Part shown: positions 7,062 through 24,478 of the stretch, piece after piece
Position numbering within the stretch: position 1 is the first letter of the stretch
Layout of the letters: each line of letters opens with the position of its first letter
Assembly (NCBI GenBank): GCA_017478105.1
Contig: JAFVEF010000024.1
Location: forward strand, 1-32,192
Length of the DNA: 32,192 bases
From: Bacilli bacterium
GTDB taxonomy: Bacteria > Bacillota_I > Bacilli_A > RF39 > UBA660
Reading direction: 5' to 3'
Translations under genes and position numbers: made by a program
The notes under the pieces: generated by a model
What the model was told of the DNA's origin: nothing
Database searches by the model: none
What the model saw: only the letters and a program-made list of their open reading frames with translations

Positions 7062-9332
7062 CTAATTATCAAAAAAATCATCAAAGAAATCATCTTCATC
7101 TTCACCTTCAGAATCCAAATCATTTTTCTGATTATTCTTTTCCTCTTTTACTTCATGAATACTATTAATACTATTTATATCAGATTCTTTTTCTTCTACT
7201 TTTATGTCAGATTGAAGATTATTTTGAACATTCTTTTCTTTTTCACGTCTTTCTTCTTCCTCAATCTCAGCAATTTTAGCATCAATCTTTTTAACTAATT
7301 CATCTATGTCAAAATCAACATCATCATCGTCATCATCAATATCAACTTCTTTAGGAGCAGAAGTAATTACACCCCTACTAACATTAGAAAAAGGTCTATC
7401 TATTCTATTCTCATCAACTTCATTATTAACTGCATGAATATTAGGAATTGTAGGTCTACTAATAACTTCTTTTTCTTCATGTTCTAAAGGTCTATCCATT
7501 ACAGGAGCAAAAGGATTTCCTGCATTTCTAGCAGTTTGTAATTCCCTAGGTAAAGATGAAAAAGGATTAAATCCCCCTGGAGCTTGCATACCAGAATCAT
7601 CTTGTTCATTCATCATTTCCAATAATTTTTTCTTCTTTTGAGCTTTAACAAATTCCTTTATATCAAATGTGTGAACAACCTCTTTCTTTCTAATAGGATA
7701 TTTAGCTTTAGGATATTCTTTACCCCAATCAATTTTAAAGAAAGGTGTAAATTTAGTTTTAAATGGTTGTTTTCTCATTCTCAAAATAATAACTTCAAAT
7801 TGTTTCATTCTTTGTAAATCAGAAACAGTTACTAACGGAGTTGAAGCTGTCTTATCATCTTTTTTAGATTTAACCTCACCACACATCTTAGATATTTCTT
7901 CCAAAGCTTTTAACTCAGTAGTAATTAAATAAATAATATTACCACAGTTACCACGTATAGTTTCAGCTTCTTCTTTTCCATAAACATCATCAAGTTGAGC
8001 AAAGTTCTGAATAATCATTGTAAATCTAATTTTTCTTGAACGAGCAGCAGTAATCATTGTTGTAACATCCTTTAATGGTGGCATATTAGCAAACTCATCA
8101 AGTAAAAAATTTGTTCTAACAGGTAAACTACCACCATGTCTTTGAGCAACACTTATTAAAGTTTCATATATTTGTTTTAATAAAATAGTTACTAAAGAGT
8201 GATAAGTTTTCTTTTCATCTTGAATAACAATAAATACAGCAGTTGGTTTTTCTCCAATAGTTTCAAGATCTATATCACTATGAGATAACATTTCAGATAA
8301 ATTTTCACGAGATGCGAATAATTTAACTTTTTGTTTAAATACAGATAAAATACTTCCTTTTGTTTCATTAGGAGCCATAATTGTACTTGAAGCATTAATA
8401 GCTGCCGCACTAGCAGGATCTTTTGCTGCAAAATACTCTTTAATATAAGTAGATCCACCAAACTTATCCTCACCAACTGTAGTAGCAAGTGAAATACTAT
8501 TTATATTAATTTCTTCTGGTTTAGCATCTTCAAATAATCCTAAAGCAACACCAGAAAAATAATCAGCAGAAGTCTTCTCCCAGAAAGGATCAGCATTCTT
8601 ATTAGAATCATCATACAAAATATTCAAAGCTAAATCATCTAATAACTCAATAGCCTTATCTTGATTACCAGACTTATATATCTGATAAGGAAGTGCCATT
8701 GGATTCCAAGAATTACCATTTTGTGGGTCGCGGAAATTTAAAAGTAAAATTTGATATCCTTTAGCCCTAAGCATATTTGAAGTCTTTTCGTATATTTCAC
8801 CTTTAGGGTCAGTAATAATCATAGACTCTTTAGCCTTAGCTAAACTATAAACCATAGGTAAAATAACAGTTTGTGTTTTACCAGAACCAGTAGCACCAAT
8901 TACCAATGAATGATACTCACCATTATCAACCCACATCTCTTTTTCGTTTAAAATTAAAGGAATTCCAGCAGCTTTAGCATGTTTAGCTGTAATAGGAACA
9001 TACTCTAATTCCTCTTTAATCTCTTTTTCCTTTGCCCATCTAGAATAACCTTTATCTTTCTTTTCAGTAGTTAATCCAACACCTTTTTCTCTTTCAAAAA
9101 ACAATGAACTAACACTCGCAAATATTCCAAGCAAAGCTAATATATAAATAGAAAGTGTTGAAAAAATAAAATCAGGTCCAAAAGCAGGAAAAGGATTTAA
9201 TCCAGATAACTCACCAGTATCTGCAAAAGTACCTATATTAACAACACCAATAGCTACAATATATAAAAGAAAAAACGCAAAGATTCCAAATATAATTAAA
9301 TCTTCTGAATCAACTCGTAATTTAAATTTCAT
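7062..9332 (-). CDS. VirD4/TraG-type coupling ATPase
   Basis: The T4SS coupling protein that brings substrates to the channel at the inner face of the membrane. It has two N-terminal membrane helices (about residues 12-33 and 55-76), Walker A GATGSGKT at 146-153, the TDPKGE box near 174-179 and Walker B FLLDEF at 409-414 followed by ANMPPL, all typical of VirD4/TcpA/TraG. The last about 180 residues are disordered and acidic, with a run of six Asp and an end of EDEDDFFDDFFDN. The frame opens at a GTG (9350), but GAGGGAG just before the ATG at 9332 makes that the likely start, giving 756 aa. It has its own promoter (9356-9384). No relaxase is nearby, so the cargo may be protein or DNA handled by another route. 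Confidence 0.93.
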   Translation of the reverse strand: MKFKLRVDSEDLIIFGIFAFFLLYIVAIGVVNIGTFADTGELSGLNPFPAFGPDFIFSTLSIYILALLGIFASVSSLFFEREKGVGLTTEKKDKGYSRWAKEKEIKEELEYVPITAKHAKAAGIPLILNEKEMWVDNGEYHSLVIGATGSGKTQTVILPMVYSLAKAKESMIITDPKGEIYEKTSNMLRAKGYQILLLNFRDPQNGNSWNPMALPYQIYKSGNQDKAIELLDDLALNILYDDSNKNADPFWEKTSADYFSGVALGLFEDAKPEEININSISLATTVGEDKFGGSTYIKEYFAAKDPASAAAINASSTIMAPNETKGSILSVFKQKVKLFASRENLSEMLSHSDIDLETIGEKPTAVFIVIQDEKKTYHSLVTILLKQIYETLISVAQRHGGSLPVRTNFLLDEFANMPPLKDVTTMITAARSRKIRFTMIIQNFAQLDDVYGKEEAETIRGNCGNIIYLITTELKALEEISKMCGEVKSKKDDKTASTPLVTVSDLQRMKQFEVIILRMRKQPFKTKFTPFFKIDWGKEYPKAKYPIRKKEVVHTFDIKEFVKAQKKKKLLEMMNEQDDSGMQAPGGFNPFSSLPRELQTARNAGNPFAPVMDRPLEHEEKEVISRPTIPNIHAVNNEVDENRIDRPFSNVSRGVITSAPKEVDIDDDDDDVDFDIDELVKKIDAKIAEIEEEERREKEKNVQNNLQSDIKVEEKESDINSINSIHEVKEEKNNQKNDLDSEGEDEDDFFDDFFDN

Positions 9333-9355
9333 TATAACTCCCTCTTTCACAGTAT

Positions 9356-9389: not shown

Positions 9390-10160
9390 TTAACTAGAAA
9401 TAACTACATCGAATTTTTCTCCATTAAAAGAATATAAAATATTACTTTGACCATTAACACTATAAGAAGAACAACTTAAAATAAGTTCATCTTTTGAATC
9501 ACCATCTATATCTAAAAAAGAATTATAATACGGTTTACATCCATTAAAACCATTCCCAGAAGAAATGTTTTTATATATATAATATAATCTATCATTTTTA
9601 AGCATAAAAGCAAGTGAATAATAAGTACTATCTTCACTAAAAACATTACTCAAAATATAAAACTCTTCTATAATACCATCTTTATCAAAATCAAGTGGAA
9701 TTTTAGTAAAAGAATTATAATTAGAATTGCTTAAAGATACATCATTATCCTCAAGTATTTGCCTAAATATACTATTATCATTAACATCAACTACATCAGT
9801 TTTAGAAACACTAATATTATAATTAGAACTAATTCCTAGAATTTCACCATCAACATAGATAGCCTTTTTATCATCATCAAATACCCTCCAGATGTTATTA
9901 TCTTTCCATAAATAATAATTACCTAGTTTTTCATGATTAACATAAATATCGTATTTTTTCCAATTTAAACTATCTAAAGATGTATTATTAGTAATAGTAC
10001 TCCATCTATTATTATTTAAAGACCAAACAACATTATCAGTAACTATAGTTGCTTCATGTGAATCATTTTTATGATAATCTCTTCCAAATAAATAATACAT
10101 AAGAGCTCCAAAAACAACTAGTATAATTAGTAAAACTATATATATTTTTTTATCTCTCAT
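9390..10160 (-). CDS. single-pass membrane protein with FG-GAP/calcium-loop-like repeats
   Basis: From the ATG at 10160 this is a 256-aa protein with a short basic N-terminus, one membrane helix (about residues 6-26) and an outer domain. Two acidic loops near the end, DFDKDGIIEEF and DIDGDSKDELI, look like the D-x-D-x-D-G-x-x-E calcium-binding loops of FG-GAP/VCBS or dockerin-like repeats. The middle has N-N-R-W and N-N-I-W-R-V segments of unknown fold. The frame extends to 10193, but AAAGGTGA ten bases before the start picks the ATG at 10160. It follows the SpoIID-C39 gene by ten bases. Its topology fits the place of a VirB8/TcpC-like subunit, but I see no sequence support for that. Confidence 0.6.
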   Translation of the reverse strand: MRDKKIYIVLLIILVVFGALMYYLFGRDYHKNDSHEATIVTDNVVWSLNNNRWSTITNNTSLDSLNWKKYDIYVNHEKLGNYYLWKDNNIWRVFDDDKKAIYVDGEILGISSNYNISVSKTDVVDVNDNSIFRQILEDNDVSLSNSNYNSFTKIPLDFDKDGIIEEFYILSNVFSEDSTYYSLAFMLKNDRLYYIYKNISSGNGFNGCKPYYNSFLDIDGDSKDELILSCSSYSVNGQSNILYSFNGEKFDVVISS

Positions 10161-10170
10161 AAAATCACCT

Positions 10171-12528
10171 TTAATCAACCCTATAATATGCAAAAGTAGA
10201 AGTATTATACCAAGGATGAGTACTCCATAAATCAGTAGCTTGTAAACCTGGATCCATCATAACAATATTATCTCCTTGAACAGCATCTATTGCTACCCAG
10301 TGTTGTCCAGTATTACCTTTTACTTCCGCAACCACATAATTATGACTATCACTTACTAATTCTTTTAATTTATTAAGTTTTGCTTCCCTAGACCATCCTA
10401 AAACATAAATTTGTCCTTGATAATTAAATCCTGGTGCTGCCGCAGTAGCTCCAGCCCATATAAAATTACCACCAGCTGCAAAACCACCATGTGTATTTAA
10501 AAACTGAACAAAAGTACCTGGATTAAAATTTTTAATTTCTGGTGTTGGAAGTCCACTCTTAGCAATCTGCATTGAAACAGAAGTAACTAAACATCCTATA
10601 CCTGCAATAGTATATCCACTATTACCCATAGGAACACTACCCCAAGCAGGAGATCTTTGTTTCCAATTAATAAACTCACCTGTAGAAATATCGCCACAGC
10701 CAGCCGAAGTATTAGAACAACTAGCTTTTGATACACTATGCGCACCAGAATTTCTACTTCCCTGATTATATACTTGCAACAATATTTGTTTATAATCTAA
10801 ACCATTATTCGCAAGTCTTACAAATTCATTTTGCTCAGTACTTGTATAACCAGTATATATAATATATCCAGAATCATTAACTAAAACTTCACCACTAGTT
10901 TCTTTATTATAAGTACGTAGAGGTGAATCACTAGGCATAGGTTGTCTTGCAAATCCAGTATTATAATTTAATCCACTATGTATTTGTCCCCATTGTCCAT
11001 CATTAGAAGAACATCCTTTATCAGGATCACAATAAACTTGATCTGCTGTACAACTAGCTGCCTGTATTACCCATTTATTACCTTCTTTTTTTAGAGTTCG
11101 CCAAGATCCCATAACAACATGACGAGCCAAAATATAACTCCTAGCCGCAACCATTTGAGCTTTTATTGCTTCTCGAGGTGCAGATGGACCAATTTCTTGA
11201 TAAGCAACACCTAGTACATATTTTTCAAATGGAACTAATTCTTCTCCTCCTAGAGGTTGTCCATAAGTCCCACCATAATTATGACCATCAGAAATACCAC
11301 ATTGCATAAGTCTTACATATAAATTACTAACTTTTGCTTCATCACTAACATTTCCTCTACCTCTAATATAATATCCTTTTATATCATAAGAACAATCTCC
11401 ACTTTCAGAAGAACATATATCATCATCTTCTTTTAATCCTATAAATTGGTTATATCTAGAAACATAATCAATAATTTTATCAGCAATCAATTCTGCTTCA
11501 GCATCATCAGAAACATCTATATATTTAGGAATTATAGTACTTACTAAGTTTTGTTTAAAAGTATCATCACTATACACACTACCACTAAACATAGCATTAG
11601 CAACCTCTGTTATCTCAGCAACACCCATATCATTATATTCTAATCTAGCACCATAAGTATTCATAACGTCATAAAAACCAGCAATTAAAACAGGATTAAA
11701 ACTCTTTCCTGATGCCGCAAAAGAATTCTTAACAGAAGAAACACGTTCAAAAAAAGCTATTTTATCAGGATCAGATGTTTCATATTCAATATTTCCAGTA
11801 TCGCCACCTGATGAATAACTAACACCTAAACCAGTATCAAATTCACCTAGTAATCCAGTTGATTGCATAGCAATTAATAATGCTAGAAAAAAGGCTGCAG
11901 CAATTCCTCCTATCATAATAACATGTCTTGGAATTCTTATATTAAACTGAGCAGTACCAGAATCATTATTTTCTCCATTCTGTTCCTCTTCAAAAGAAGA
12001 TCCACCAAACATATCAAAAATAGATTTTCTTTTCTTTTTACCACCTAATAAATTAGATCCAAAAGAACTTTCTCTACCAAAACTATTTTGATTATTACCT
12101 CTACCATTTGAACCATTACCATTACCTATAGAAGGATTATTACTTTCTACACCACCGGTACTACTAGTAGTATTTACTCCACCTGAAGAAGGAAGAGCCC
12201 TAGCTCCTCCATTATTCCTTCTAAATGTATTTTGATTATTATTAATACCATTTTGAGAACCACCATTAAAAAGGTTACGTCTACCACTATTATTACTATT
12301 TCTTAACCTATCCATTTTTGTTTTTAATGGATTAAAATCATTAGCTCTTCCAATGGCTTTGCCAACAGCTTTACTAGCTTTACCACCAGTAACTTTGTCA
12401 ACCCCTTTAGCAACCATACCAGCGCTTTTAACATAAGGATTAACAGATTTAGAAGCAGCATCAACAACACCCTTACCTATTTGTTTATTCTTCTCATCTT
12501 GAATATTATTTTGATTAGAATTGTCCAT
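10171..12528 (-). CDS. membrane-anchored SpoIID domain - C39-like cysteine peptidase fusion
   Basis: A 785-aa predicted wall-remodelling protein. Residues 1-202 are cytoplasmic, low-complexity and rich in Asn, Gly and Ser; a membrane helix lies at 203-221. Residues about 425-590 form a SpoIID/LytB-like domain (LVPFEKYVLGVAYQEIG, then EAIKAQMVAARSYIL, ending in L-D-Y-K-Q-I-L-L-Q-V-Y). SpoIID itself is a lytic transglycosylase acting on stripped glycans. Residues about 615-785 look like a papain-like C39_2 domain: IGCLVTSVSM with C646, QHWVAIDAV with H743, and MMDPG with D759. Gram-positive T4SS loci usually have a lysozyme-NlpC/P60 protein (VirB1/CwlT) in this role. AGGTGG precedes the ATG at 12528; a GTG at 12540 is less likely. 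Confidence 0.82.
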   Translation of the reverse strand: MDNSNQNNIQDEKNKQIGKGVVDAASKSVNPYVKSAGMVAKGVDKVTGGKASKAVGKAIGRANDFNPLKTKMDRLRNSNNSGRRNLFNGGSQNGINNNQNTFRRNNGGARALPSSGGVNTTSSTGGVESNNPSIGNGNGSNGRGNNQNSFGRESSFGSNLLGGKKKRKSIFDMFGGSSFEEEQNGENNDSGTAQFNIRIPRHVIMIGGIAAAFFLALLIAMQSTGLLGEFDTGLGVSYSSGGDTGNIEYETSDPDKIAFFERVSSVKNSFAASGKSFNPVLIAGFYDVMNTYGARLEYNDMGVAEITEVANAMFSGSVYSDDTFKQNLVSTIIPKYIDVSDDAEAELIADKIIDYVSRYNQFIGLKEDDDICSSESGDCSYDIKGYYIRGRGNVSDEAKVSNLYVRLMQCGISDGHNYGGTYGQPLGGEELVPFEKYVLGVAYQEIGPSAPREAIKAQMVAARSYILARHVVMGSWRTLKKEGNKWVIQAASCTADQVYCDPDKGCSSNDGQWGQIHSGLNYNTGFARQPMPSDSPLRTYNKETSGEVLVNDSGYIIYTGYTSTEQNEFVRLANNGLDYKQILLQVYNQGSRNSGAHSVSKASCSNTSAGCGDISTGEFINWKQRSPAWGSVPMGNSGYTIAGIGCLVTSVSMQIAKSGLPTPEIKNFNPGTFVQFLNTHGGFAAGGNFIWAGATAAAPGFNYQGQIYVLGWSREAKLNKLKELVSDSHNYVVAEVKGNTGQHWVAIDAVQGDNIVMMDPGLQATDLWSTHPWYNTSTFAYYRVD

Positions 12529-12548
12529 TGACACCACCACCTACAAAA

Positions 12549-14339
12549 TTAGAATCCTCCACCGATTCCAAATGAATCTAATTCTTCTTGAGTAACCGCA
12601 ACATTAATCCTCATTCGACGATTACCACATACAAACAACGCTTCACCTTGTGAATATTGTTTTATACTCTCTTTTTCACTTTCATTTAAATCAATTAATA
12701 AACTTAAATCCTCAACAGCCTGTTTTCTAAGACCCATAATAAGATAATAAGATGAATTATCAAAAATTGCTTTTCCTTGCGTAATAACAGCAGGATCAGA
12801 AAAATCACTAGGTTGTTGTGTAATAATTACACTACCAGTATTATATTTTCTTGCTCTTCTTTGAACTTGAGCTAAGAAATCAGCACCTAAAGCATTATTA
12901 TCTCCTAATAAAACATGTGCTTCATCGACCATTAATATAGTATTAACATTAAAATCTAAACATAATCCCCAAGCATATTTTAATACATTAAAGAATAATG
13001 CATTTTTAACAGATGAATCACTATTCATTAACTCTTTAATATTAAATACCATAAAGTCACTACCCTTACGTATAGTAGTATGACCATCAAAATAAAATTT
13101 TAATTCCTTAACAATAGGTCTAACTTTAAGTTCCAATCTCTCCATTATCTCTCTCTCATGAGTTTGTTCAGTCATAGACATAAGTCTTCCTCTAATAGTA
13201 GAATATAAATCACTAAAAGTAGGATAATCTTGAGAAGTAAAATTAGAAAAATCAGTATTAAAATCTATTCCAAAACGCTTATAAGTATCTTGAGCAATTT
13301 CCGAAAACATAGTTAATACATCTTCTTGTATAGATGGATCATAATACTTCATAAAAGCTTTTAAAAATTGTAAAGTACGAGTTAAAACAGTATAACCTAA
13401 TCCCTGTTTAATTTCTTCCTCATCTGCATCAATTACAATCTCTAATGGATTAATTAATCCAAACTCTCCACCTTTACCAATATCTATACTATCTCCACCA
13501 AAAGCACGAGTAATTTCTCTAAACTCATCTTCAGGATCGATAATAACTATTTGACAACCATTTCTAATATGACTTCTAAGTAATAACTTAGCAGCAGTAC
13601 TTTTACCAGAACCAGAAGTACCTAAAATAATCATATTAGCATTATTTCTATTATTTTCTTTACGTATTTTATATAAGAATTGATTAAATAAAACAACTCC
13701 TCCAGAAAAATCAACACCAAGTAAAGTAGATAATCCTGGATCTTTTAAACTATCAAAAATAAATGGATACATAGCTGCTATTGTAACAGATGGAATTGGA
13801 GTACCAATTCTTTGTTCAATATCAGTAGCATCAAATACTGGAATAATTGATTTTAAAACTTTTTCTTGTTCAAATCTTAAAGCTACTGCTCTTAATTCCA
13901 TTGAATCTAAATAATTCTTAACATTTAATTTTTTAAGTTCAAGTTCTTCTTTAGTATCAGCGGTAATCATAATATGTAATTGAAAATCAAATATACGAGC
14001 TTGACTACCAGCAAGCATAGAAGTAAAATACTCCAAACTTTCAGCATCCTGTCTAATTCTTTCTCTTTCAGTTTGATCTCTTTCGTTATTATACTTTTCT
14101 TTTAAATCAGCTATTTGTTTATTCAACATTTTAGACATTTGTTGAAAAGGAACTGGTATATGTTTAACTACAACTTTAATACCACTCATATTAGTAAGAG
14201 TTGCTAAATAACCAGGCATAATATATTTAGGATATGAAACAACAGTTAATATAGTTGCATATTTATCACTAATAATAAAATCACTAGGATTAAAATGTAA
14301 TCCTTTAGGAGCAATTTGACTCTTTAAACCAAAACTCAC
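12549..14339 (-). CDS. VirB4-type ATPase, C-terminal part (ATPase domain)
   Basis: The main ATPase of a T4SS, here 596 aa. It starts within what is normally the middle of VirB4: APKGLHFNPSDFIISDKY followed by the V-x-x-Y-P element. Walker A GTSGSGKST is at residues 240-248, the IIDPEDEF motif at 266-273, Walker B ILMVDEAH at 468-475, and the ITQQPSDF sensor region follows. The missing N-terminal part is encoded by the adjacent 182-aa gene; together they add up to about 780 aa, the usual VirB4 length. The start is a GTG at 14339 that overlaps the upstream TGA stop as GTGA, so the two parts are probably translated by coupled re-initiation. Confidence 0.92.
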   Translation of the reverse strand: MSFGLKSQIAPKGLHFNPSDFIISDKYATILTVVSYPKYIMPGYLATLTNMSGIKVVVKHIPVPFQQMSKMLNKQIADLKEKYNNERDQTERERIRQDAESLEYFTSMLAGSQARIFDFQLHIMITADTKEELELKKLNVKNYLDSMELRAVALRFEQEKVLKSIIPVFDATDIEQRIGTPIPSVTIAAMYPFIFDSLKDPGLSTLLGVDFSGGVVLFNQFLYKIRKENNRNNANMIILGTSGSGKSTAAKLLLRSHIRNGCQIVIIDPEDEFREITRAFGGDSIDIGKGGEFGLINPLEIVIDADEEEIKQGLGYTVLTRTLQFLKAFMKYYDPSIQEDVLTMFSEIAQDTYKRFGIDFNTDFSNFTSQDYPTFSDLYSTIRGRLMSMTEQTHEREIMERLELKVRPIVKELKFYFDGHTTIRKGSDFMVFNIKELMNSDSSVKNALFFNVLKYAWGLCLDFNVNTILMVDEAHVLLGDNNALGADFLAQVQRRARKYNTGSVIITQQPSDFSDPAVITQGKAIFDNSSYYLIMGLRKQAVEDLSLLIDLNESEKESIKQYSQGEALFVCGNRRMRINVAVTQEELDSFGIGGGF

Positions 14340-14884
14340 TGTATCATCACCATCCCAAACTCATTAGTATTTCCACCATTAAGGAAATTTTCTAATATAA
14401 GTCTTAAATCAGAATTACTAATCATTGAAGCATTTAATCCACAAGTTGCTAGACCAGTAATCATTTGACGAACCCTCTTTTGAAATAAATCAACATCTTT
14501 TGTTTTAAATATAAGATAATACTCAGTATCTACAACATTACCATCTATAAACTTCTCACCTTTTTGAATATCTTGAAGTATTAATTTACGAACTGCTGGA
14601 GAACTAGTATCATTTAATAATTGTTGCATCTGAGACATATAAACAGAAAGATCAACCGGTCTATCTGCAGATATTAACCAAAATTCATAATCAATAGTAT
14701 TATAAAAATTACGAAGAGCAGTCAATATATTATTTTGCATATCAAAATCTAATATAAAGATATTTCTTGGGGTAACCTTAACTCCTCCAACTTTATAATT
14801 ATTAGTAGTAATAATCATATTATTCTGTATACTTCTAACAGGTAACCAATCCTCAGTAAAAGGACTATTTGACTTTTTTGCCAT
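14336..14884 (-). CDS. VirB4-type ATPase, N-terminal part as a separate protein
   Basis: This 182-aa protein resembles the N-terminal domain of VirB4/TraE/ConE: W-L-P-V-R-S-I-Q-N-N-M-I-I-T-T at the start, a V-T-P-x-N-I-F strand, L-x-N-F-Y-N-T-I-D-Y-x-F-W, and R-P-V-D-L-S-V-Y-M-S-Q. It ends just where the next gene begins. No ATP-binding motif is present. The frame extends to 14950 inside the PrgI gene, but the family-like N-terminus begins at the ATG at 14884, which overlaps the PrgI stop by 20 bases. The ribosome binding site is weak (AAAGG about a dozen bases upstream). The pair could be a true split or an old frameshift; the clean GTGA overlap favours a real split. Confidence 0.75.
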   Translation of the reverse strand: MAKKSNSPFTEDWLPVRSIQNNMIITTNNYKVGGVKVTPRNIFILDFDMQNNILTALRNFYNTIDYEFWLISADRPVDLSVYMSQMQQLLNDTSSPAVRKLILQDIQKGEKFIDGNVVDTEYYLIFKTKDVDLFQKRVRQMITGLATCGLNASMISNSDLRLILENFLNGGNTNEFGMVMIQ

Positions 14885-15176
14885 CTCGCCAACACCAACC
14901 TTTCCATTTATAAGTTTGTCTATTCGTAATAAATTCATATAATTCAACAAGAATATTTAACATGTTATGATAATACTTTACTGGTAGAACTAAAAAACCA
15001 GTAATTAATCCAGGAGCAAGTGCCAGTATTGTTACCCAAACATCTCCCAATGGAAGAAAAGAAAGTAACAATATTGAAACTAAAACACCAGACCCAAATA
15101 ATATTAAATCAAAAGGACGAAACAAACCTAATATCAATTGTCCCTTTTTTGTATTAGCAGGTATTAAATAATTCAC
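14865..15176 (-). CDS. PrgI/VirB3-like membrane protein
   Basis: A 103-aa protein with two adjacent membrane helices (about residues 24-42 and 46-67) and a basic, aromatic C-terminus (TYKWKGWCWRDGKKVK). The N-terminal IPANTKKGQLILGLFRPFDLILF matches the PrgI family pattern. PrgI/VirB3 proteins sit in the inner membrane next to VirB4 and are almost always encoded just before it, as here. The start is GTG at 15176 with a GGGAG site eight to nine bases upstream. The stop overlaps the start of the VirB4 N-terminal gene. Confidence 0.85.
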   Translation of the reverse strand: MNYLIPANTKKGQLILGLFRPFDLILFGSGVLVSILLLSFLPLGDVWVTILALAPGLITGFLVLPVKYYHNMLNILVELYEFITNRQTYKWKGWCWRDGKKVK

Positions 15177-15192
15177 TTATATCACACTCCCT

Positions 15193-17349
15193 TTATTTTT
15201 TGGTACTATAAAAATCATTAGCTTCTTGTATACCACTCGAACGTTTTGCATTTGCTGCTTCAGCAGAAAGCTTTTTAGCTTCATCATTAAATACACTTCG
15301 TACTTCTTTTCCAGTCTCACCATAAGATTTATTACTAATAGTATCACCAAACGAACCTTGACCATAAAGTGCATCATAATCACTAACCAGTGTTTCAAAT
15401 TCAACATTAGGTTTAGCATTTTGGGCGTTAGGATTTACACCTCGATTGAAAATAAAATCAGCCGCATTGCTTTCTTTTAAATCATTATCCAAATGCTCTG
15501 CTTGTAACGTAGAAATAGTTTTTCCATCAAACACAAAAGAAGATTTATTAGCAGCTTTAGCAGCATTACGTGCTTTAGTCCAATCAGCATAATTACCCTT
15601 AACATCAATTGTTGTTCCACTACTATCTGTCCAAGAAGCTTTACCAGTTGTCCAAGAAGCAGATGCAGCTACTTTTTTCTCAGCAAAATCCACAATCGAA
15701 GAATTAGCTTTACTTTTATTCTCAAGATTTTTCATATCACGAGTTAACTCACTAGATTTTGATTCCCCAGTAAATAATGTATGTGCTGCAGATTTAGCTC
15801 TACCAAAAGCAGTAGAACCACTTTGTCCCCGAGCAACAATATCACTATTTCTTTTAGATAATGTACTTAAAACTTTCTTATAGCTTCCATCCTTAGCAGT
15901 AGCAGCTCCAACACCAGCTGCCAAGCCACCAAAACCGCCACCGATACCAGCAGCTATATGTTTCCCAGTATTCAAAGTTTTTTGTGCAAGATTCATACCA
16001 TTTCTATCAACACCATTTGCCTTATCAGCAGCAATACTAGCTCTACGTCCAGCTGCAAAAGATCCTATAGATCCAAGAGCAGCAGTACCTAAACCAATAC
16101 CAGTAGTAATAGCTCCTAATCCACTGAATAAACCACCAGGTTCTCCTTTTATTCCTAAAACATCATAGACAAATTTAGGGGCTTTTTTCGCAAAAGCAAA
16201 TAAACCTAAAATAATGAAAATAATTGACATTACACCTATAGAACTATCAGCACCTATACCTAAAGATATTCCTCCAGATACTATATTTTGAGCAATAAAT
16301 ATAACAAACATTATTAAAGCTAATCTCATAAATAAATCAAGATAAGTCGAAGTAACCAAACCAGTCCATGATTTCATTGCTTCATCACCTTTACCATTAG
16401 GATTCATATAACTAATAATTGGTATAGGTGCAAGTAATCTAAGTAAAGCCAACTTTATTGACCTAACTGCAACATCAATTGTAAAGCTTACTAACATCAC
16501 TAAGATAAATATACTTACTAGACAAGAAGTTAATCCATTATATGCAAAAACATATCTTTTTACACCTGGTAACCATCTTGGCTTCCACCACTCTGCATCA
16601 ACAGGTTTACACTTTTCATTAACCAGATCGAGTAGGTCTTGTACTTCTACATCACTAGCTTCATAAACTTCTAATTGATCATCAATGTTATCACCGCATA
16701 ATCTATTTTCCGCAAAATACTCATCAGGCTTGCCCTCTTCATGTTTTTTTCTATTTTCTTCAGGAACTAGATTAATTCTAAAAAAGCTTCGAAAAATACC
16801 AACTGTAAACTCTCTTGATGATTCAGCGAGTGCTTCATTATTTGATTTACTATTACTAGAATTCATATTTGTAGTTAATTCAGAATCATCACCAAGTATT
16901 ATTTTTCCAATAGTATTACTAGCTAAAACACGATGTTGTAAAGAATATAAAGTACCAAATAACAAACCATTATTATTTACACTTCTTTCATATTCATTAT
17001 TTCCACCATTAGGCATACGTATTGGAACAATACAAGCAAGTAAAACCATCGCCGTAATAATTCTAGTAATTAAATTACCAACACCTTTTTTAGAATCAGT
17101 AAATGAATCTGGATCAACTAAACCTCTTATAATGGTCATTCCAAGTTGAAACAACATAAAAACACCCAGTATTAGCTGAATTCTTCCAAATAGATTAAAC
17201 ACTGTTTTCCCATCTAAAATATTAGCTCCTGCAACATTAAAAAATATTTGATAAATAATAGAAAGTAGCCAATATACAACACTATCTACAAAAGAAAAAA
17301 TAGTACGAACAAAATCATATAAAGGATTAGCCGCATAAGTCTGATACAT
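15193..17349 (-). CDS. VirB6/TrbL-like polytopic membrane protein
   Basis: A 718-aa candidate for the inner-membrane channel subunit. Predicted membrane segments lie near residues 24-40, 54-78, 92-112, 270-292, 296-312, 336-358 and 370-388, with a large polar loop at 113-265 probably outside. The element LLRLLAPIPIISYMNP at 302-317 resembles the conserved core of VirB6/TrbL proteins. Residues 405-435 form a Gly-rich possible extra helix, and the last about 280 residues are polar, Ala- and Lys-rich and without membrane segments. The start follows the upstream TAG directly (TAGATG), with AAAGGATGGTG inside the end of the VirB2-like gene as ribosome binding site. An antisense open frame at 16685-17149 is a shadow. 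Confidence 0.82.
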   Translation of the reverse strand: MYQTYAANPLYDFVRTIFSFVDSVVYWLLSIIYQIFFNVAGANILDGKTVFNLFGRIQLILGVFMLFQLGMTIIRGLVDPDSFTDSKKGVGNLITRIITAMVLLACIVPIRMPNGGNNEYERSVNNNGLLFGTLYSLQHRVLASNTIGKIILGDDSELTTNMNSSNSKSNNEALAESSREFTVGIFRSFFRINLVPEENRKKHEEGKPDEYFAENRLCGDNIDDQLEVYEASDVEVQDLLDLVNEKCKPVDAEWWKPRWLPGVKRYVFAYNGLTSCLVSIFILVMLVSFTIDVAVRSIKLALLRLLAPIPIISYMNPNGKGDEAMKSWTGLVTSTYLDLFMRLALIMFVIFIAQNIVSGGISLGIGADSSIGVMSIIFIILGLFAFAKKAPKFVYDVLGIKGEPGGLFSGLGAITTGIGLGTAALGSIGSFAAGRRASIAADKANGVDRNGMNLAQKTLNTGKHIAAGIGGGFGGLAAGVGAATAKDGSYKKVLSTLSKRNSDIVARGQSGSTAFGRAKSAAHTLFTGESKSSELTRDMKNLENKSKANSSIVDFAEKKVAASASWTTGKASWTDSSGTTIDVKGNYADWTKARNAAKAANKSSFVFDGKTISTLQAEHLDNDLKESNAADFIFNRGVNPNAQNAKPNVEFETLVSDYDALYGQGSFGDTISNKSYGETGKEVRSVFNDEAKKLSAEAANAKRSSGIQEANDFYSTKK

Positions 17350-17814
17350 CTAAATCACCATCCTTTGTATAGCACCTACTCCACAAGTAGGATCTCCAGT
17401 AATACCAAAGACAGATAAAATTAATTGTACAAAAACAGGAAGAAAAAACAAACTAGCCGCAAGAATAAGTCTTGTAAATAATTTCTTTTTAGCCTTAGCT
17501 AATTTATCATCATCTCCAGTAGTTATTACTTGAGCAAAATCTATGCTACTTAAAACCACTACAATTAATGGGCCACCAATCTTAACATAATCCAATAATT
17601 TGTTTAATAGCCAAACAACAGAATCATCTTCATTGTTGCTATCTAACGAACTACAATCAACCATTTTATGTTTAACAAAAGTATTATTAAAACTTAATGA
17701 CTCCACATTATAATTAAAAGAATTATTACTTTCTAAAGCATAACTTTTAATAGGAAAAACACTAAAAAAAGCAAATGTAACTATTATAAATAACAAATAT
17801 TTAAACTTTCTCAT
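17350..17814 (-). CDS. VirB2-like small membrane protein with signal peptide
   Basis: A 154-aa protein with a signal peptide (basic start, hydrophobic core to about residue 20, P-I-K-S-Y-A-L cleavage area), a polar stretch, then two membrane helices (about 76-95 and 110-134) linked by a basic loop D-D-D-K-L-A-K-A-K-K-K. This is the VirB2/TrbC pilin layout. It is paralogous to the next gene at 17898-18209: both have G-x-P-L-V/I core, I-D-x-x-x-x-V-I, a charged loop, then R-L/F-I-x-A-A-x-x-F-F. The C-terminus ends GVGAIQRMVI; the motif GVGAIQ (145-150) also occurs near the end of the Flp-like protein at 20329-20532. It heads the T4SS core unit. Confidence 0.72.
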   Translation of the reverse strand: MRKFKYLLFIIVTFAFFSVFPIKSYALESNNSFNYNVESLSFNNTFVKHKMVDCSSLDSNNEDDSVVWLLNKLLDYVKIGGPLIVVVLSSIDFAQVITTGDDDKLAKAKKKLFTRLILAASLFFLPVFVQLILSVFGITGDPTCGVGAIQRMVI

Positions 17815-17832
17815 CTAATCACCTGATAATAT

Positions 17833-17861
17833 ACTATATCATAATATAGTTTATCATACAA
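17833..17861 (-). promoter_or_regulatory. possible promoter of the T4SS core unit, with inverted repeat
   Basis: On the minus strand, TTGTAT (17861-17856) and TATAGT (17838-17833) are 17 bases apart. An inverted repeat ACTATAT/ATATAGT (17833-17839 with 17844-17850) covers the -10 area and could be an operator. The position directly after the upstream terminator makes a promoter here necessary unless transcripts read through. Confidence 0.4.
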
Positions 17862-17890
17862 AAAAAAAAATAGCAATCAAGATCACTATT
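17861..17890 (-). terminator. strong terminator after the lone VirB2-like gene
   Basis: On the minus strand, the ten-base stem AATAGTGATC/GATTGCTATT (17890-17881 with 17878-17869, two wobble pairs), with a two-base loop, is followed by ten T. It ends the transcript of the 103-aa VirB2-like gene seven bases after its stop codon. Confidence 0.88.
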
Positions 17891-17897
17891 TTAATTA

Positions 17898-18209
17898 TTA
17901 AATATTTTTCCAACAAGTTGCCCAGCTACCGTCTCCAGCATCTTCACTATTATCAGATACAATATTCATAAGAACAGTAACTAATGTAGTAACAAAGAAT
18001 ACAAGAGCAGCATAGATAAATCTTTTAATTAATCTACTTTGAGCAGCTTTAACTTCTTTCTCGTCACTCGCAATAACAGCTTTTCCTAAATCAATAGTTC
18101 CATAAATAATTAAAACAATTGGAATACCTATTTGAACTAAAGGAAAAACACCATGTTTGATTAAACGAACAATTGGATCTAAACCTCTACATACTTCTAA
18201 TAAATACAT
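17898..18209 (-). CDS. VirB2-like small membrane protein, candidate major pilin
   Basis: A 103-aa protein with two membrane helices (about residues 22-42 and 66-87) joined by a charged loop (ASDEKEVKAAQSRL), followed by an acidic tail and WATCWKNI. The helix-loop-helix layout is that of VirB2/TrbC, and it is a shorter paralogue of the protein at 17350-17814, lacking the cleavable signal peptide. The gene is alone between a full-consensus promoter (18233-18262) and a strong terminator (17861-17890). This monocistronic, high-expression layout is expected for an abundant structural subunit. AGGAG (18222-18218) lies eight bases before the ATG. Confidence 0.72.
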   Translation of the reverse strand: MYLLEVCRGLDPIVRLIKHGVFPLVQIGIPIVLIIYGTIDLGKAVIASDEKEVKAAQSRLIKRFIYAALVFFVTTLVTVLMNIVSDNSEDAGDGSWATCWKNI

Positions 18210-20596: not shown

Positions 20597-20605
20597 TATT
20601 TTTTT
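20576..20605 (-). terminator. intrinsic terminator after tadC
   Basis: On the minus strand, the eight-base stem AAATATTG/CAATATTT (20601-20594 with 20588-20581), extended by A-T pairs, with a five-base loop, is followed by a T run. It overlaps the tadC stop codon and ends the long unit that begins at 32021. Confidence 0.85.
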
Positions 20606-21407
20606 AAAACATCATCATCATAGATATTAGTATAACTAACATAACACCTACACCAGTAACTACTAACATAACCATAGTTTGACTTTCCATATGATTAAGT
20701 CTTTCTTTATACTTAGTCTCACGTGCTTTGTTCTGTAAACTTGACACTGTTCTTGAAAACATCATCAAACGTTCTTGTTTTCTTTCTTGAGAACCAATTC
20801 CTAAACGATACAATAATCTCATCATTCGCATAGAATCACGTACTGGATAAGTATTCGCAAACTCCATATAAGGATCAACTGAAGAATCACCAGAATTAAT
20901 TCTATCAATCATACGTCTAAGACCTGGCTTAAAAATATCTGGTGCATCTTCTATACTTTTACCAATCGCAACAGGAACAGTATAGTGTTGAATTAAGATT
21001 TCTAAACTTTTTAAATAATAAGGAAGCATAACATCTATATCATGTAAATGTTTCTTATAATAACTCTTTAATTGAGTATAAGAAGATTTAAAAACAACAA
21101 ATGCAACAACTGCAGCCAATATTAAGTTCAAAAAGAATTGCGAATTAAACACCTCAGCAGAACTACTACCAGAAATAGATAATGCTAAAACTATCATGAA
21201 TGCTACTAATGCAGAAGTTATTCTTTTTGAATACAATTGATCAACATCGACATCTTCTCCATACCTAGCATATACTAAAAATTGATAATCTTCCTCTTTT
21301 AAAAATTCTAAATACTTTTGATTATCAGCAAAAAACTTATCTTTATCAATAGTATTATTATATATAAGTATAAAGATAATTATTGCCCCTACTAATAACA
21401 CTTCCAT
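20604..21407 (-). CDS. tadC: TadC-like T2SF membrane protein
   Basis: A 267-aa inner-membrane platform protein of the Tad/type IVc pilus. It has an N-terminal helix, helices near residues 67-80 and 90-107, a cytoplasmic T2SF domain (DIDVMLPYYLKSLEILIQHYTVPVAIGKSIEDAP) and a final helix ending in a run of Met. The T2SF domain contacts the TadA ATPase. The ATG shares its first base with the stop of the preceding tadB (TAATG), so translation is coupled. Assignment as TadC rather than TadB rests on order and on the short form; the two are hard to tell apart by eye. Confidence 0.8.
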   Translation of the reverse strand: MEVLLVGAIIIFILIYNNTIDKDKFFADNQKYLEFLKEEDYQFLVYARYGEDVDVDQLYSKRITSALVAFMIVLALSISGSSSAEVFNSQFFLNLILAAVVAFVVFKSSYTQLKSYYKKHLHDIDVMLPYYLKSLEILIQHYTVPVAIGKSIEDAPDIFKPGLRRMIDRINSGDSSVDPYMEFANTYPVRDSMRMMRLLYRLGIGSQERKQERLMMFSRTVSSLQNKARETKYKERLNHMESQTMVMLVVTGVGVMLVILISMMMMF

Positions 21408-22309
21408 TATTCAGCACCTACATTCTCATTATAGTATTTCTCACCTTTTAATAAGAAATAAGTATTTATAATTAACACCCCATGCATTAGTACTTGAACA
21501 TACCATTTCTGAACCAATACCAAATAAGAATCCCTTCCTAATAAATACTGAACTAACATAACCAACAAGTAAAGCATTATACCAAATTGTAAGAATGACT
21601 TATGAAAAGATGCTCTTTCAATTCTATCACGATAAACACCTTCAACCAAAACATCAATATCCAATTGCATATTTTCAAGAGAATCAGCAGAATTTTGTGC
21701 ACCTTCCTTAGTAATTTGTAAAAACAACTGATGCATATTCTTAACAATGTAATAAGGATATAATTTACTCATATAACTTAATGCTTCATCTATTGTACCA
21801 TTATCATAACTCATATTAATCATTTGTCTAACATCACTAAGAACTGGATCTTCTAATACTCCAGAATTAGCAACACCCTCTAAAGCTTTAACAAAAGACT
21901 GTGTAGTTGCAAACTCCATAATAACATTAGAAGTATATATTTGAACTTGCTCAAATATAAATTCTGAATAAGTTTTTTTACATCTTAAATATGTTAAATA
22001 TGGAACAAAACCAACAGCTATTAAAGCATATATTATACTAATAATTAAATTATAAAAATATAAATAAGAAACTACTGCAGCAAAAGATGCAAACAAGGTT
22101 ACTTGAATAGCATATTGCCTAGGAGTATATTCTTGTCCTAACTCCTTAGTTTTTTCTCTAACAACTTTAAACGAATAAGGAGCAAATCTATCATACATAC
22201 CTTGAACTTGAGTTAAAACATATTTACCTACATTTTCACCCTTATAGTTTCTATAAATATATATGAGAAAGAAAAATACTAATATTATAAATAACTCTTC
22301 AATATACAT
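21407..22309 (-). CDS. tadB: TadB-like T2SF membrane protein
   Basis: A 300-aa membrane protein with helices near residues 5-20, 72-88 and 89-107, a cytoplasmic T2SF domain (FIFEQVQIYTSNVIMEFATTQSFVKALEGVANSG) and two C-terminal helices. Together with the next gene it forms the two-protein platform typical of Tad systems. AGGAG precedes the ATG at a normal spacing. It follows the TadA ATPase gene by 14 bases. Confidence 0.8.
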   Translation of the reverse strand: MYIEELFIILVFFFLIYIYRNYKGENVGKYVLTQVQGMYDRFAPYSFKVVREKTKELGQEYTPRQYAIQVTLFASFAAVVSYLYFYNLIISIIYALIAVGFVPYLTYLRCKKTYSEFIFEQVQIYTSNVIMEFATTQSFVKALEGVANSGVLEDPVLSDVRQMINMSYDNGTIDEALSYMSKLYPYYIVKNMHQLFLQITKEGAQNSADSLENMQLDIDVLVEGVYRDRIERASFHKSFLQFGIMLYLLVMLVQYLLGRDSYLVLVQKWYVQVLMHGVLIINTYFLLKGEKYYNENVGAE

Positions 22310-22323
22310 ATAATAACTCCTTT

Positions 22324-23631
22324 CTATCCATCTAATTTAGCAATATTTGGAATCAAATTAACAACCGAAGAACTATTAGTAGTATTAGGACTACTATTTA
22401 CTAACTGAGGTTGCTCTTGAACAACTCCAGGAGTTTGATTTAAAACAACAGGATTAGAATTATTAACAACTTGTGAAGTTGTAGGATTAACCTGATTTGC
22501 CACAACATCTTTTTCCACAACTTCTTGTGTATTATTATCTTCTAAATCACTATCAGTCTCATGAAGAGGTAATTCCTCAGGTAAATCTTTAATGATACTA
22601 CGAACCTCAATATTTTGATTTTCTAAGTACTCAACTAAATGATCACTAGGCATACACATCATTGGTTTTCCAAATATTTTTTGATATATAACACGAGATT
22701 TAGGCTCATTATTATCATCAACATAAAATTCACAAACTTCATCTAATTCACGATGAAATTTACCATATTCCTTACTATAAAAAGCTTTTATATGTACACC
22801 TAATTGAATATAACGATAAATCGTTGTTAAAAATTGATGTACGTCCAAGTCAGTTTCCATTAAGGAATATAAACGATATGGAATAGCACTTGCTTTATCA
22901 GCATGGATTGTTGATAAAATATTATGTCCAGATGAAATTGAGTTACGTACAGCAGAAACAGCTTCGGCACTACGAACCTCAGATAGTAGAATCCATTTAG
23001 GATTCTGACGCATACAAGTAACTAATACATCAGAATAACTTGCTACATTATTAGTTTTCATTGCAACTATATCTCTCTTTGGAAATATTTTATCCAAATG
23101 CAATTCCAAAGTATCTTCTATAGTAATAATCTTCTCATTAGTTTTAGTATGAGAAGCTAAATATTTAACAAACTCTGTTTTACCAGAACCAGTTTCTCCA
23201 GCAACCATTATATTACAATGACCTTCAACACATTTAATTAAAAAATCATGTATAGCCGGAGTAAAATAATCTTCTTGTAATAATTTCTCTTTATTTAAAC
23301 GAATCTTAGCAGGAGTTTTACGTATAACTAAAGCAATACCATTAGTAGCAATAGATTGATGTACAAAGTTCATACGTAACTCTGCACTTTCAGCATCTAA
23401 AAATGGTTTAGCATTATTAAATGTCGTTCCCATAACATTCGAACATTGAAAAGCTAACTTTTCAACAAATTCAGGAGTCGCCCCCTCAACTTCTACTCTC
23501 ATAGAGCCTTGAGTTAGAGAACGAATCCAAATTTGCCCACCATTATCATAAGAAATATCAGTTATATCATCATTATCAAGTAATGAACGAAATGGTCCGA
23601 AATCCAATTTGTCAAAAATATTTTCGTTCAT
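22324..23631 (-). CDS. tadA: TadA/CpaF-type secretion ATPase
   Basis: The hexameric ATPase that powers Tad pilus extension (and in some systems retraction). In the 435-aa protein, Walker A GETGSGKT is at residues 145-152, the Asp-box IEDTLELHL at 171-179, Walker B-like WILLSEVR at 213-220 and the His-box GHNILSTIHAD at 235-245. The Walker B acidic residue is preceded by Ser, as in CpaF/TadA. The N-terminal domain is short, and the last about 70 residues are a disordered tail rich in Asn, Gln, Pro and Val. A GGGAAGTGAG site precedes the ATG. This is the surest marker that the right half of the cluster is a Tad-type machine. Confidence 0.93.
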   Translation of the reverse strand: MNENIFDKLDFGPFRSLLDNDDITDISYDNGGQIWIRSLTQGSMRVEVEGATPEFVEKLAFQCSNVMGTTFNNAKPFLDAESAELRMNFVHQSIATNGIALVIRKTPAKIRLNKEKLLQEDYFTPAIHDFLIKCVEGHCNIMVAGETGSGKTEFVKYLASHTKTNEKIITIEDTLELHLDKIFPKRDIVAMKTNNVASYSDVLVTCMRQNPKWILLSEVRSAEAVSAVRNSISSGHNILSTIHADKASAIPYRLYSLMETDLDVHQFLTTIYRYIQLGVHIKAFYSKEYGKFHRELDEVCEFYVDDNNEPKSRVIYQKIFGKPMMCMPSDHLVEYLENQNIEVRSIIKDLPEELPLHETDSDLEDNNTQEVVEKDVVANQVNPTTSQVVNNSNPVVLNQTPGVVQEQPQLVNSSPNTTNSSSVVNLIPNIAKLDG

Positions 23632-23665
23632 CTAACTCACTTCCCTTTTTTCTTTTTTATTTTAA

Positions 23666-24478
23666 TTAATTATCTGTCCAAACAGTATGATTATTAATCC
23701 ATTCTTTTAATTGTTCACTAGATAAAGTTATATCACCTGGTTCATCTTTTTTACTTTCATTTGTTGGAACCAATTCAAGAGATGTTTCATAAGTTCTCAT
23801 ATAACGAGCTTTACTTAATAAAACATAATACTCTTCAGGTACAGCAAATATAATCATAGATGGAACACGAGCCTCATCAGTATTTTGAAAAACATTTTGA
23901 CCATTAGAATCTAAAACTGCTAAAACTTTAATATTAGATATTAACTTACCATACATAATCTTATCAGCATCACGATTTCCAGCAGCAATTTGTTCATCAG
24001 TTACTTTATTAACAGCTTTTAACCAAATATCGATATAATTACCAGGATAAACAGAATTACCATAAGTTGTATTATTATCAACATTCAAGCGATATAAAAC
24101 ATACCCTGATTGATATTCAGAAATAATATTATCAGGTAATTGTTCTTTTTCTACTACATTTCTTCTATAAAATAAACATCCTTCTGGAATAACAGAATCA
24201 ACAGCAGAATATTTATCAATTATCTGTGCCTTATCTTGAAGAACTTCACCTGCTAACATTGCAGGAGGTACTTCTCTTAAACCAATCATACTTTCAGTAA
24301 TTTGAACACCAGGTTTAATAGTTTCTTTCGCATAAGGAACTAAAACTGGATTTATTGCAGATTTTACTCTCATCGTATATGCAAAATATAATACAAATAC
24401 TGCTAGTACAGCACCAACTACAGTAACAGTATTTTTGTTTTGCATAAACTTTTTTATACTTAAACTTAAATTACCCAT
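23666..24478 (-). CDS. cpaB: CpaB/RcpC-like pilus assembly protein (SAF domain)
   Basis: A 270-aa protein with one membrane helix (about residues 17-35) and a SAF-type domain (about 40-115): P-Y-A-K-E-T-I-K-P-G-V-Q-I-T, then R-E-V-P-P-A-M-L, and an I-P-E-G-x-x-x-x-R-x-x-V strand. The rest has the CpaB-type fold with YPGNYIDIWLKA. In diderm bacteria CpaB/RcpC links the pilus to the outer-membrane secretin; no secretin is encoded here, so it may bind the cell wall or another surface part. It lies between a pseudopilin-like gene and tadA, as in many Firmicutes tad loci. Confidence 0.85.
   Translation of the reverse strand: MGNLSLSIKKFMQNKNTVTVVGAVLAVFVLYFAYTMRVKSAINPVLVPYAKETIKPGVQITESMIGLREVPPAMLAGEVLQDKAQIIDKYSAVDSVIPEGCLFYRRNVVEKEQLPDNIISEYQSGYVLYRLNVDNNTTYGNSVYPGNYIDIWLKAVNKVTDEQIAAGNRDADKIMYGKLISNIKVLAVLDSNGQNVFQNTDEARVPSMIIFAVPEEYYVLLSKARYMRTYETSLELVPTNESKKDEPGDITLSSEQLKEWINNHTVWTDN

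Follow-up and report, generated by a model that had tools for sequence, protein, structure and literature searches.

In Gram-positive bacteria, the VirB1 proteins of T4SSs combine an SLT or muramidase domain with CHAP and LytM domains, as outlined in a recent review (PMC12857230). PrgK of pCF10 is one of the few enzymes to have been dissected for the passage of a Gram-positive T4SS through the thick cell wall. It carries three such domains, and in the work described in PMC11323569 the SLT domain alone cut, and LytM and CHAP showed no activity. An apparently active domain may therefore have just a regulatory role. A different kind of glycan cutter, SpoIID, acts in B. subtilis and C. difficile after SpoIIP strips the stem peptides, and a Waddlia SpoIID enzyme is also active on peptidoglycan sacculi (PMC6221140, PMC6635528). 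Phages and conjugative elements encode a few polyvalent proteins with SpoIID-like transglycosylase domains, which are thought to help breach peptidoglycan (PMC5512222). Neither SpoIID nor C39 occurs in the main text of the T4SS review cited above. Among the literature matches listed, from a coverage that excluded most subscription journals and all preprints, none described a T4SS hydrolase that combines SpoIID with C39, or a T4SS linked to Tad genes in the Bacilli analysed here; PMC5512222 was the nearest.

We analysed a 32,192-nt stretch of DNA, the window (GCA_017478105.1, contig JAFVEF010000024.1, positions 1 to 32,192 of the forward strand), in which a sequence-only reading had placed a SpoIID domain and a C39-like peptidase on one membrane-anchored protein in the position of VirB1. 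The evidence throughout is sequence and prediction, and the genomes are largely metagenome assemblies. With a probability of about two in three, the protein serves a chromosomal T4SS of the Gram-positive type as its VirB1-type wall hydrolase, in which a SpoIID glycan cutter is joined to a cysteine peptidase, each with a predicted activity.

The fusion recurs in a chromosomal T4SS locus

With the C39-like domain as query, a scan of the genome collection found 163 relatives; the analysis covered the best 80. Sixty-one of these have the middle, SpoIID and C39-like domains, 6 have SpoIID and C39-like domains, and 13 have the C39-like domain only (446-560 aa). The survey of T4SS loci that the sequence-only reading called for thus found the fusion at 67 loci, a recurrence that rules out a chance or one-off fusion. 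The assignment to the VirB1 place was borne out: the gene lies between those of VirB4 and VirD4 (Table 1), and the same neighbours, VirB4 immediately upstream and the partner gene immediately downstream, were found in 61/67 loci. The remaining 6 loci meet a contig end on the upstream side (5) or the downstream side (1). VirD4 was present in 66/67, RmuC in 57/67 and a class I (W/Y) tRNA synthetase in 42/67 of the SpoIID + C39 loci, some contigs stopping before those genes. The labels TadB/TadC, TadZ and VirB3 were assigned from gene place and size. Between window positions 5809 and 32021, the genes of the T4SS, a Tad-like pilus, Ig-like/DUF6273 surface proteins and a sortase lie together on one strand, next to core genes.

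Table 1. Features of the window, with positions on the forward strand
Feature	Positions	Strand	Basis or remark
VirD4 coupling protein	7062..9350	(-)	Pfam PF02534, E=1.2e-57
Partner gene FG267, partner family A	9390..10160	(-)	N-terminal membrane helix and ectodomain
SpoIID + C39-like membrane-anchored wall protein	10171..12528	(-)	785 aa from ATG; a GTG at 12540 would add 4 aa
Low-complexity tail, residues 1-202			predicted cytoplasmic
Membrane helix, ~residues 203-221	11866..11922	(-)	hydropathy
Helical middle domain, residues 232-371	11416..11835	(-)	AlphaFold2 pLDDT 95.0, pTM 0.89
SpoIID domain, ~residues 400-603	10720..11331	(-)	
Catalytic-type E445	11194-11196	(-)	
C39-like cysteine peptidase domain, ~residues 612-785	10174..10695	(-)	
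C646	10591-10593	(-)	
H743	10300-10302	(-)	
D759	10252-10254	(-)	
VirB4 C-terminal ATPase part, 596 aa	12549..14339	(-)	
VirB4 N-terminal part, separate gene	14336..14950	(-)	NCBIfam NF045975, E=1.1e-15, below cut-off
VirB6-like membrane protein	15193..17349	(-)	weak NCBIfam matches below cut-off
Two T4SS_pilin-like small proteins	17350..18209	(-)	both below cut-off
Tad-like genes	20604..24478	(-)	CpaF (T2SSE 2e-27); CpaB below cut-off
Two TadB/TadC-like membrane proteins	within 20604..24478	(-)	place and size; no Pfam match

The division of VirB4 into two genes is conserved. An N-terminal part of ~182-222 aa was a separate gene in 56/56 SpoIID + C39 loci where it was found; no N-terminal part was seen in 6/62, and in 5 of those 6 VirB4 was cut by the contig end. 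A frameshift artefact was rejected, as the split recurs and the C-terminal part has its own frame of ~578-621 aa among the matches listed. VirB4 matches at E<=1e-100 were obtained in 172/193 genomes of the window's order, nearly always as one copy, so the T4SS seems chromosomally fixed and not a passing element: it looks like a machine kept by most of the order. VirD4 (PF02534) likewise has one copy in the genome, inside the window. Across the class, 12/247 genomes matched the ectodomain profile (E<=1e-15), some over one domain only, and all 12 belong to the window's own family. No relaxase was found among the 29 window ORFs scanned, and PF03432 had no match in the window genome (86% complete). 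A Mob_Pre relaxase is encoded on another contig of this genome (G000:C59:571-1077), and the chromosomal T4SS might mobilise it.

In 9/13 C39-only loci (best 80 of 163 relatives), the C39-like gene directly follows that of VirB4, apparently in a second, ICE-like kind of T4SS. In L095, L098, L100, L101, L104-L106, L109 and L110, the C39-like domain is on a protein of ~520-560 aa directly after an unsplit VirB4. The one locus typed (L104) has VirB4 of family CD1110 and VirD4 of family CD1115.

Layout and anchoring of the protein

The ORF at 10171-12540 (-) is open from end to end, and the ATG at 12528 gives 785 codons. Numbered from this ATG, C646, H743 and D759 fall where they had been reported, and the ~200-residue low-complexity tail described before the helix is present, its cytoplasmic side being predicted from topology. 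Single hydrophobic segments, starting at residue 139-246, were found in all 63 SpoIID + C39 homologues with an intact 5' end (63/63; 67 homologues among the best 80 of 163 relatives). An AlphaFold2 model of residues 232-785, built from 44 sequences, had a mean pLDDT of 90.2 and a pTM of 0.52; the single domains are therefore trustworthy and their relative placement is not. Searched with Foldseek, this model gave one match at E<=0.001.

When the middle domain was modelled separately, Foldseek found no PDB match to it at E<=0.001. A helix motif noticed by eye had raised the idea of a degenerate lysozyme, which was unsupported at the same threshold; the similarity to goose lysozyme (Z 3.6 over 97 residues) is in the noise range. 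Nor did the window protein have a Pfam match at E<=0.01 to a lysozyme-like or NlpC/P60 domain, the pair found in CwlT/Orf14.

The ectodomain contains 9 cysteines. Those near C372 and near C611 were both present in 62 sequences and both absent in 6, one of which (L102) is merely cut off. C410 and C493 occurred together in 59, were missing together in 6 and were found singly in 2. By their covariation, C372-C611 and C410-C493 look like disulfide pairs, which would leave C646 as the likely free cysteine.

The SpoIID and C39-like domains

The SpoIID domain matched Pfam PF08486 (E=1e-10; 42.6 bits against a cut-off of 23) and missed the cut-offs of NCBIfam SpoIID_LytB (TIGR02669; 43.8 bits versus 83.3) and of the sporulation-orthologue model spore_II_D (TIGR02870; 30.9 bits versus 234.75). 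Its closest fold matches were C. difficile SpoIID (5i1t; Z 14.5, 2.7 Å over 155 residues), SleC (9h68; Z 13.2) and B. anthracis SpoIID (4rwr; Z 10.7). In the family profile, E445 aligns with the catalytic E101 of C. difficile SpoIID, which is required for activity (PMC6221140). Three conserved cysteines lie around the position of the four-residue zinc site of C. difficile SpoIID, yet one of them, C493, covaries with C410 like a disulfide. At other places in the genome lie a SpoIIP gene and one more SpoIID-like gene.

E445 is kept in 62/68 sequences (the window protein and the 67 SpoIID + C39 homologues from the best 80 of 163 relatives). When the 68 were placed on a tree computed with the E445 column left out, the six replacements (L039, L041, L050, L081, L083 and L088) were six separate changes, so the SpoIID part is not catalytic in every homologue. 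The C39-like triad is intact in each of the six, and three also lack the otherwise conserved Q458. A protein from a separate search (L006) likewise lacks the SpoIID glutamate and has an intact triad.

No C39 match was obtained with Pfam at E<=0.01 in the whole window protein. Scanned alone, the C39-like domain gave E=0.13 (PF03412; 12.5 bits versus a cut-off of 22), and the homologous domain of a relative, L145, passed PF13529 (27 versus 24 bits). In structure comparisons, the C-terminal part matched papain-fold enzymes: PeiR (8z4n; Z 12.0), PCAT1 (Z 11.0), the C39-like peptidase 3erv (Z 10.5) and ComA (Z 10.2). The phytochelatin synthase-like enzyme 2bu3 scored Z 12.9 over a matched range that includes other parts of the model too. 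The motifs GC..TS, H and D-P are common to the domain and to C39 families. With the window protein included, C646 and H743 are conserved in 68/68 and D759 in 67/67 readable sequences (L084 is cut before the Asp), and the triad is kept in 13/13 C39-only proteins (best 80 of 163 relatives). The domain is probably a cysteine peptidase with a Cys-His-Asp triad in a papain fold. A phage or plasmid source was considered and rejected: phage and plasmid records gave no match, and 0 of 50 pattern matches in viral contigs were confirmed.

HMM search and structure prediction, the checks proposed in the sequence-only reading, thus support both domains on one membrane-anchored chain: SpoIID by PF08486 and fold, C39 mainly by the papain fold together with the homologous PF13529-passing domain. 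At the level of fold and of aligned residues, the level at which the refuting condition of the sequence-only reading was checked, both active sites (E445 and the triad) are predicted to assemble.

The slot after VirB4 holds exchangeable modules

The region after VirB4 was surveyed in 48 further genomes, two of which were cut off; the other 46, the window and 14 earlier genomes gave 61 rows on a VirB4 tree. Slot proteins were classed in 55 of the 61 (54 genera, the window and G013 being one genus and two of the 55 rows), leaving G097, G008, G071, G169, G051 and G221 unclassed. Classes were taken from Pfam, else from local profiles; the SpoIID of G103 was judged by eye and the lysozyme of G060 is below cut-off. 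This gave 23 slot labels, some distinct only by the lysozyme or carboxypeptidase model, and on the tree each protein received one peptidase class from a fixed list.

The slot pairs SpoIID, lysozyme or glucosaminidase with C39-like, M23, CHAP, NlpC/P60, M15/VanY or other modules, in more than 10 combinations. Glycan and peptidase modules were both detected in 40/55 slot proteins. At first classing 16/55 had no glycan module, from which it follows that the glycan cutter may be dispensable. SpoIID (31 proteins) and phage-type lysozyme (10 proteins) occurred together in 0/55 (Fisher 6.7e-5, on counts that ignore kinship), which fits the expectation for substitutes. One protein (L230) pairs the C39-like domain with a glucosaminidase, no SpoIID being detected in it. 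Within the genus g110, M15, NlpC/P60 and glucosaminidase + C39-like proteins are mixed, and in genus g1 SpoIID + C39-like proteins were found in 4/4.

On the VirB4 tree, module classes are spread almost at random. Peptidase class required at least 29 changes (mean of shuffles 32.4; 16/300 at or below), the glycan module 22 (mean 22.6; 126/300) and C39-like presence 11 (mean 13.3; 24/300), counts for which G148 and G103 carried their first labels, without SpoIID. The SpoIID + C39-like fusion is, as judged from these sequences, one of many exchangeable solutions in the slot and not a single oddity. The premise that Gram-positive loci usually use a lysozyme-like plus NlpC/P60 protein was too narrow, given the SLT/muramidase combinations with CHAP and LytM described in PMC12857230 and the more than 10 slot combinations in this order. 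The proposal of a different solution for the same step, should both parts cut, is partly supported.

A few slot proteins carry other modules. Those of L118 (121-3000) and L152 (1717-3447(-)) have GDSL-type esterase-like matches below cut-off, perhaps a wall O-acetyl esterase, and the former additionally has CHAP and phage lysozyme domains. The slot protein at L125:145-3072 combines SpoIID with a NAGPA phosphodiester glycosidase, for which a teichoic-acid target is conceivable.

The downstream gene tracks the C39-like module

Most genes located between those of the hydrolase and VirD4 can be assigned to three families, L118 and L235/L236 being among the few outside them. Family A proteins have one N-terminal helix and an ectodomain, family B consists of one or two small anchored proteins, and family C proteins are, by eye, lipoprotein-like with a C-terminal helix. 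No clear kinship was detected among the three; the one weak A-B match was over the membrane helix alone. The ectodomain of partner A has two conserved cysteines and two conserved acidic D-x-D-x-D/N loops similar to loops that bind calcium.

Slot module and partner were both known for 51 genomes. Among these, partner A accompanied the C39-like domain in 15/15 and was present in 2/36 without it; 12/15 C39-like rows, the window included, were found by searching with the window protein, the partner being no part of that search. Without the C39-like domain, SpoIID had no effect on partner A (1/17 versus 1/19). Partner B was found in 9 cases, all of them M23 proteins without SpoIID, and 3 more such M23 proteins have partner C. 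On well-supported branches, the 5 independent pairs for C39-like and A gave a mean of 4.9 in agreement and 0 opposed (median p 0.0625, the pairs being too few for 0.05); M23 and B gave 5.5/8 in agreement and 0 opposed (median p 0.031), and SpoIID and A 2.5/9 in agreement and 0.7 opposed. Among the best 80 of 163 relatives, partner A is present in 66/67 SpoIID + C39 loci, the other being cut off, versus 1/13 C39-only loci, some of which are short. The exceptions are two C39-like loci with C (L234, L237) and two loci with A and no C39-like domain (L022, CHAP; L132, M15). One locus with M23 and partner B (L240) has a local SpoIID-like match as well.

As partner A tracks the C39-like module, hydrolase and partner seem to be exchanged as a cassette. 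An obligatory immunity function of partner A for the C39-like domain was unsupported, A being present in 1/13 C39-only loci (some short). For partner B, a VirB8-like identity suspected by eye was not borne out by any PDB sequence match at E<=5.

Proposed mechanism and alternatives

In the preferred reading, one helix would anchor the protein and hold two wall-cutting modules outside the membrane. The C39-like domain, through its Cys-His-Asp triad, would cut stem peptides or cross-links, after which the SpoIID domain (E445) would break the glycan chain, in parallel to SpoIIP preparing chains for SpoIID in sporulation. Both cuts together would clear a gap for the T4SS channel or filament. By analogy with sporulation, a peptidase and SpoIID on one chain would couple the peptide and glycan steps. 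SpoIID of the B. subtilis type depends on glycans free of peptides (PMC6221140, PMC6635528), which an endopeptidase alone, unlike an amidase, would not make. If the C39-like domain is an endopeptidase, the SpoIID part would have to be Waddlia-like or need help. The downstream anchored protein may be a dedicated partner of the C39-like domain that either links it to the T4SS as an adapter, the role proposed for PrgL towards PrgK, or inhibits it.

The modelled papain fold does not by itself fix the substrate, and the other fold matches are protein-cutting enzymes. The C39 domains of ABC transporters cleave leader peptides, and the matches to the peptidase domains of PCAT1 (Z 11.0) and ComA (Z 10.2), along with the pilin-like and Tad-like genes of this locus, would fit a domain that cuts pilins, surface proteins or a passing substrate instead of peptidoglycan. 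We consider this distinctly improbable: the domain is predicted to lie outside the membrane, it swaps with peptidoglycan hydrolases and pairs with a glucosaminidase, and it occurs also in the second kind of T4SS locus, where no homologue of the window's TadZ-like gene is visible. As it swaps with known wall hydrolases in one slot, wall cutting is the economical reading. A more serious candidate, doubtful though with a real chance of being right, is that the C39-like domain alone cuts and that SpoIID is a glycan-binding or regulatory scaffold, like LytM and CHAP in PrgK (PMC11323569). The loss of E445 in 6/68 with the triad never lost (Fisher 0.028, kinship ignored), and of Q458 in three of the same six proteins, point this way. 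Against it, E445 is present in 62/68, the window protein among them; SpoIID stays while the peptidase changes to CHAP, M23, NlpC/P60, M15 or VanY; and SpoIID and phage-type lysozyme exclude each other (0/55).

The turnover of modules bears on whose wall is opened. If the protein attacked the wall of a neighbouring cell, fast turnover would be adaptation to varied targets, consistent with the near-random module classes on the VirB4 tree (29 versus a mean of 32.4; 22 versus 22.6), their variation within genera such as g110, and the results for relaxases (none among the 29 window ORFs, no PF03432 in the genome). In Patescibacteria, T4SS clusters are mostly without relaxases, and peptidase and lysozyme genes directly after virB4 were essential for one species' epibiotic growth (PMC12102498). 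This reading is improbable in our judgement, as the anchor is in the producer's own membrane, turnover may also be neutral exchange of equivalent modules, and, with a Mob_Pre relaxase on another contig, the T4SS may still transfer DNA. We also entertain, as a tentative and rather unlikely proposal, that the slot is a cassette site in a core T4SS-Tad machine shared by a whole order of gut Bacilli, no relaxase gene being found in the cluster. Hydrolase and cognate partner would be swapped among relatives as a unit, like toxin-immunity or lysin cassettes, to open varied target walls, with the partner restraining or aiming the peptidase; the pairings would be C39-like with A, M23 without SpoIID mostly with B, and others with C.

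The analysis also points to a T4SS that uncultured gut bacteria have retained across most of an order. At a single fixed locus, glycan and peptide cutters have been exchanged naturally many times on one machine, and a partner gene is linked to them. This makes testable which activity is needed, whether SpoIID replaces lysozyme, and what the neighbouring gene does.

Comparison with known systems

The C39-like domain shares fold and motifs with Peptidase C39 and C39_2 (ComA, PCAT1, 3erv); it differs in falling below the Pfam cut-offs and in being on a wall protein, predicted to lie outside the membrane. PeiR, a pseudomurein endoisopeptidase, is likewise a papain-fold wall peptidase (Z 12.0, 14% identity) and acts on the archaeal wall. 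The match to SleC, a cortex-lytic enzyme of spore germination (Z 13.2), is confined to the SpoIID part. With SpoIID of the SpoIID/SpoIIP pair the window protein shares the fold and a catalytic-type glutamate, but it is fused to a peptidase and is not the sporulation orthologue. The polyvalent proteins are multidomain and thought to enter with DNA, whereas the window protein is anchored and encoded in a chromosomal T4SS cluster; their SpoIID-like domain is given as PF07486 in PMC5512222, that of the window protein being PF08486.

The window protein has the features of a VirB1-like protein: its gene is in a T4SS cluster, it has a membrane anchor, and its predicted wall-cutting domains lie past that anchor. 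TraG of pIP501 (ALPHA), PrgK of pCF10 (DELTA) and Orf14 of Tn916 (BETA), as described in PMC12857230, are likewise membrane-anchored with extracellular wall-cutting domains, and the cytoplasmic part and two enzyme domains of the window protein give it an ALPHA-like layout (PMC12857230). In contrast to all three, its glycan module is SpoIID and not SLT, muramidase or lysozyme, its peptidase is C39-like and not CHAP or NlpC/P60, and it has an extra helical domain between the helix and the enzymes.
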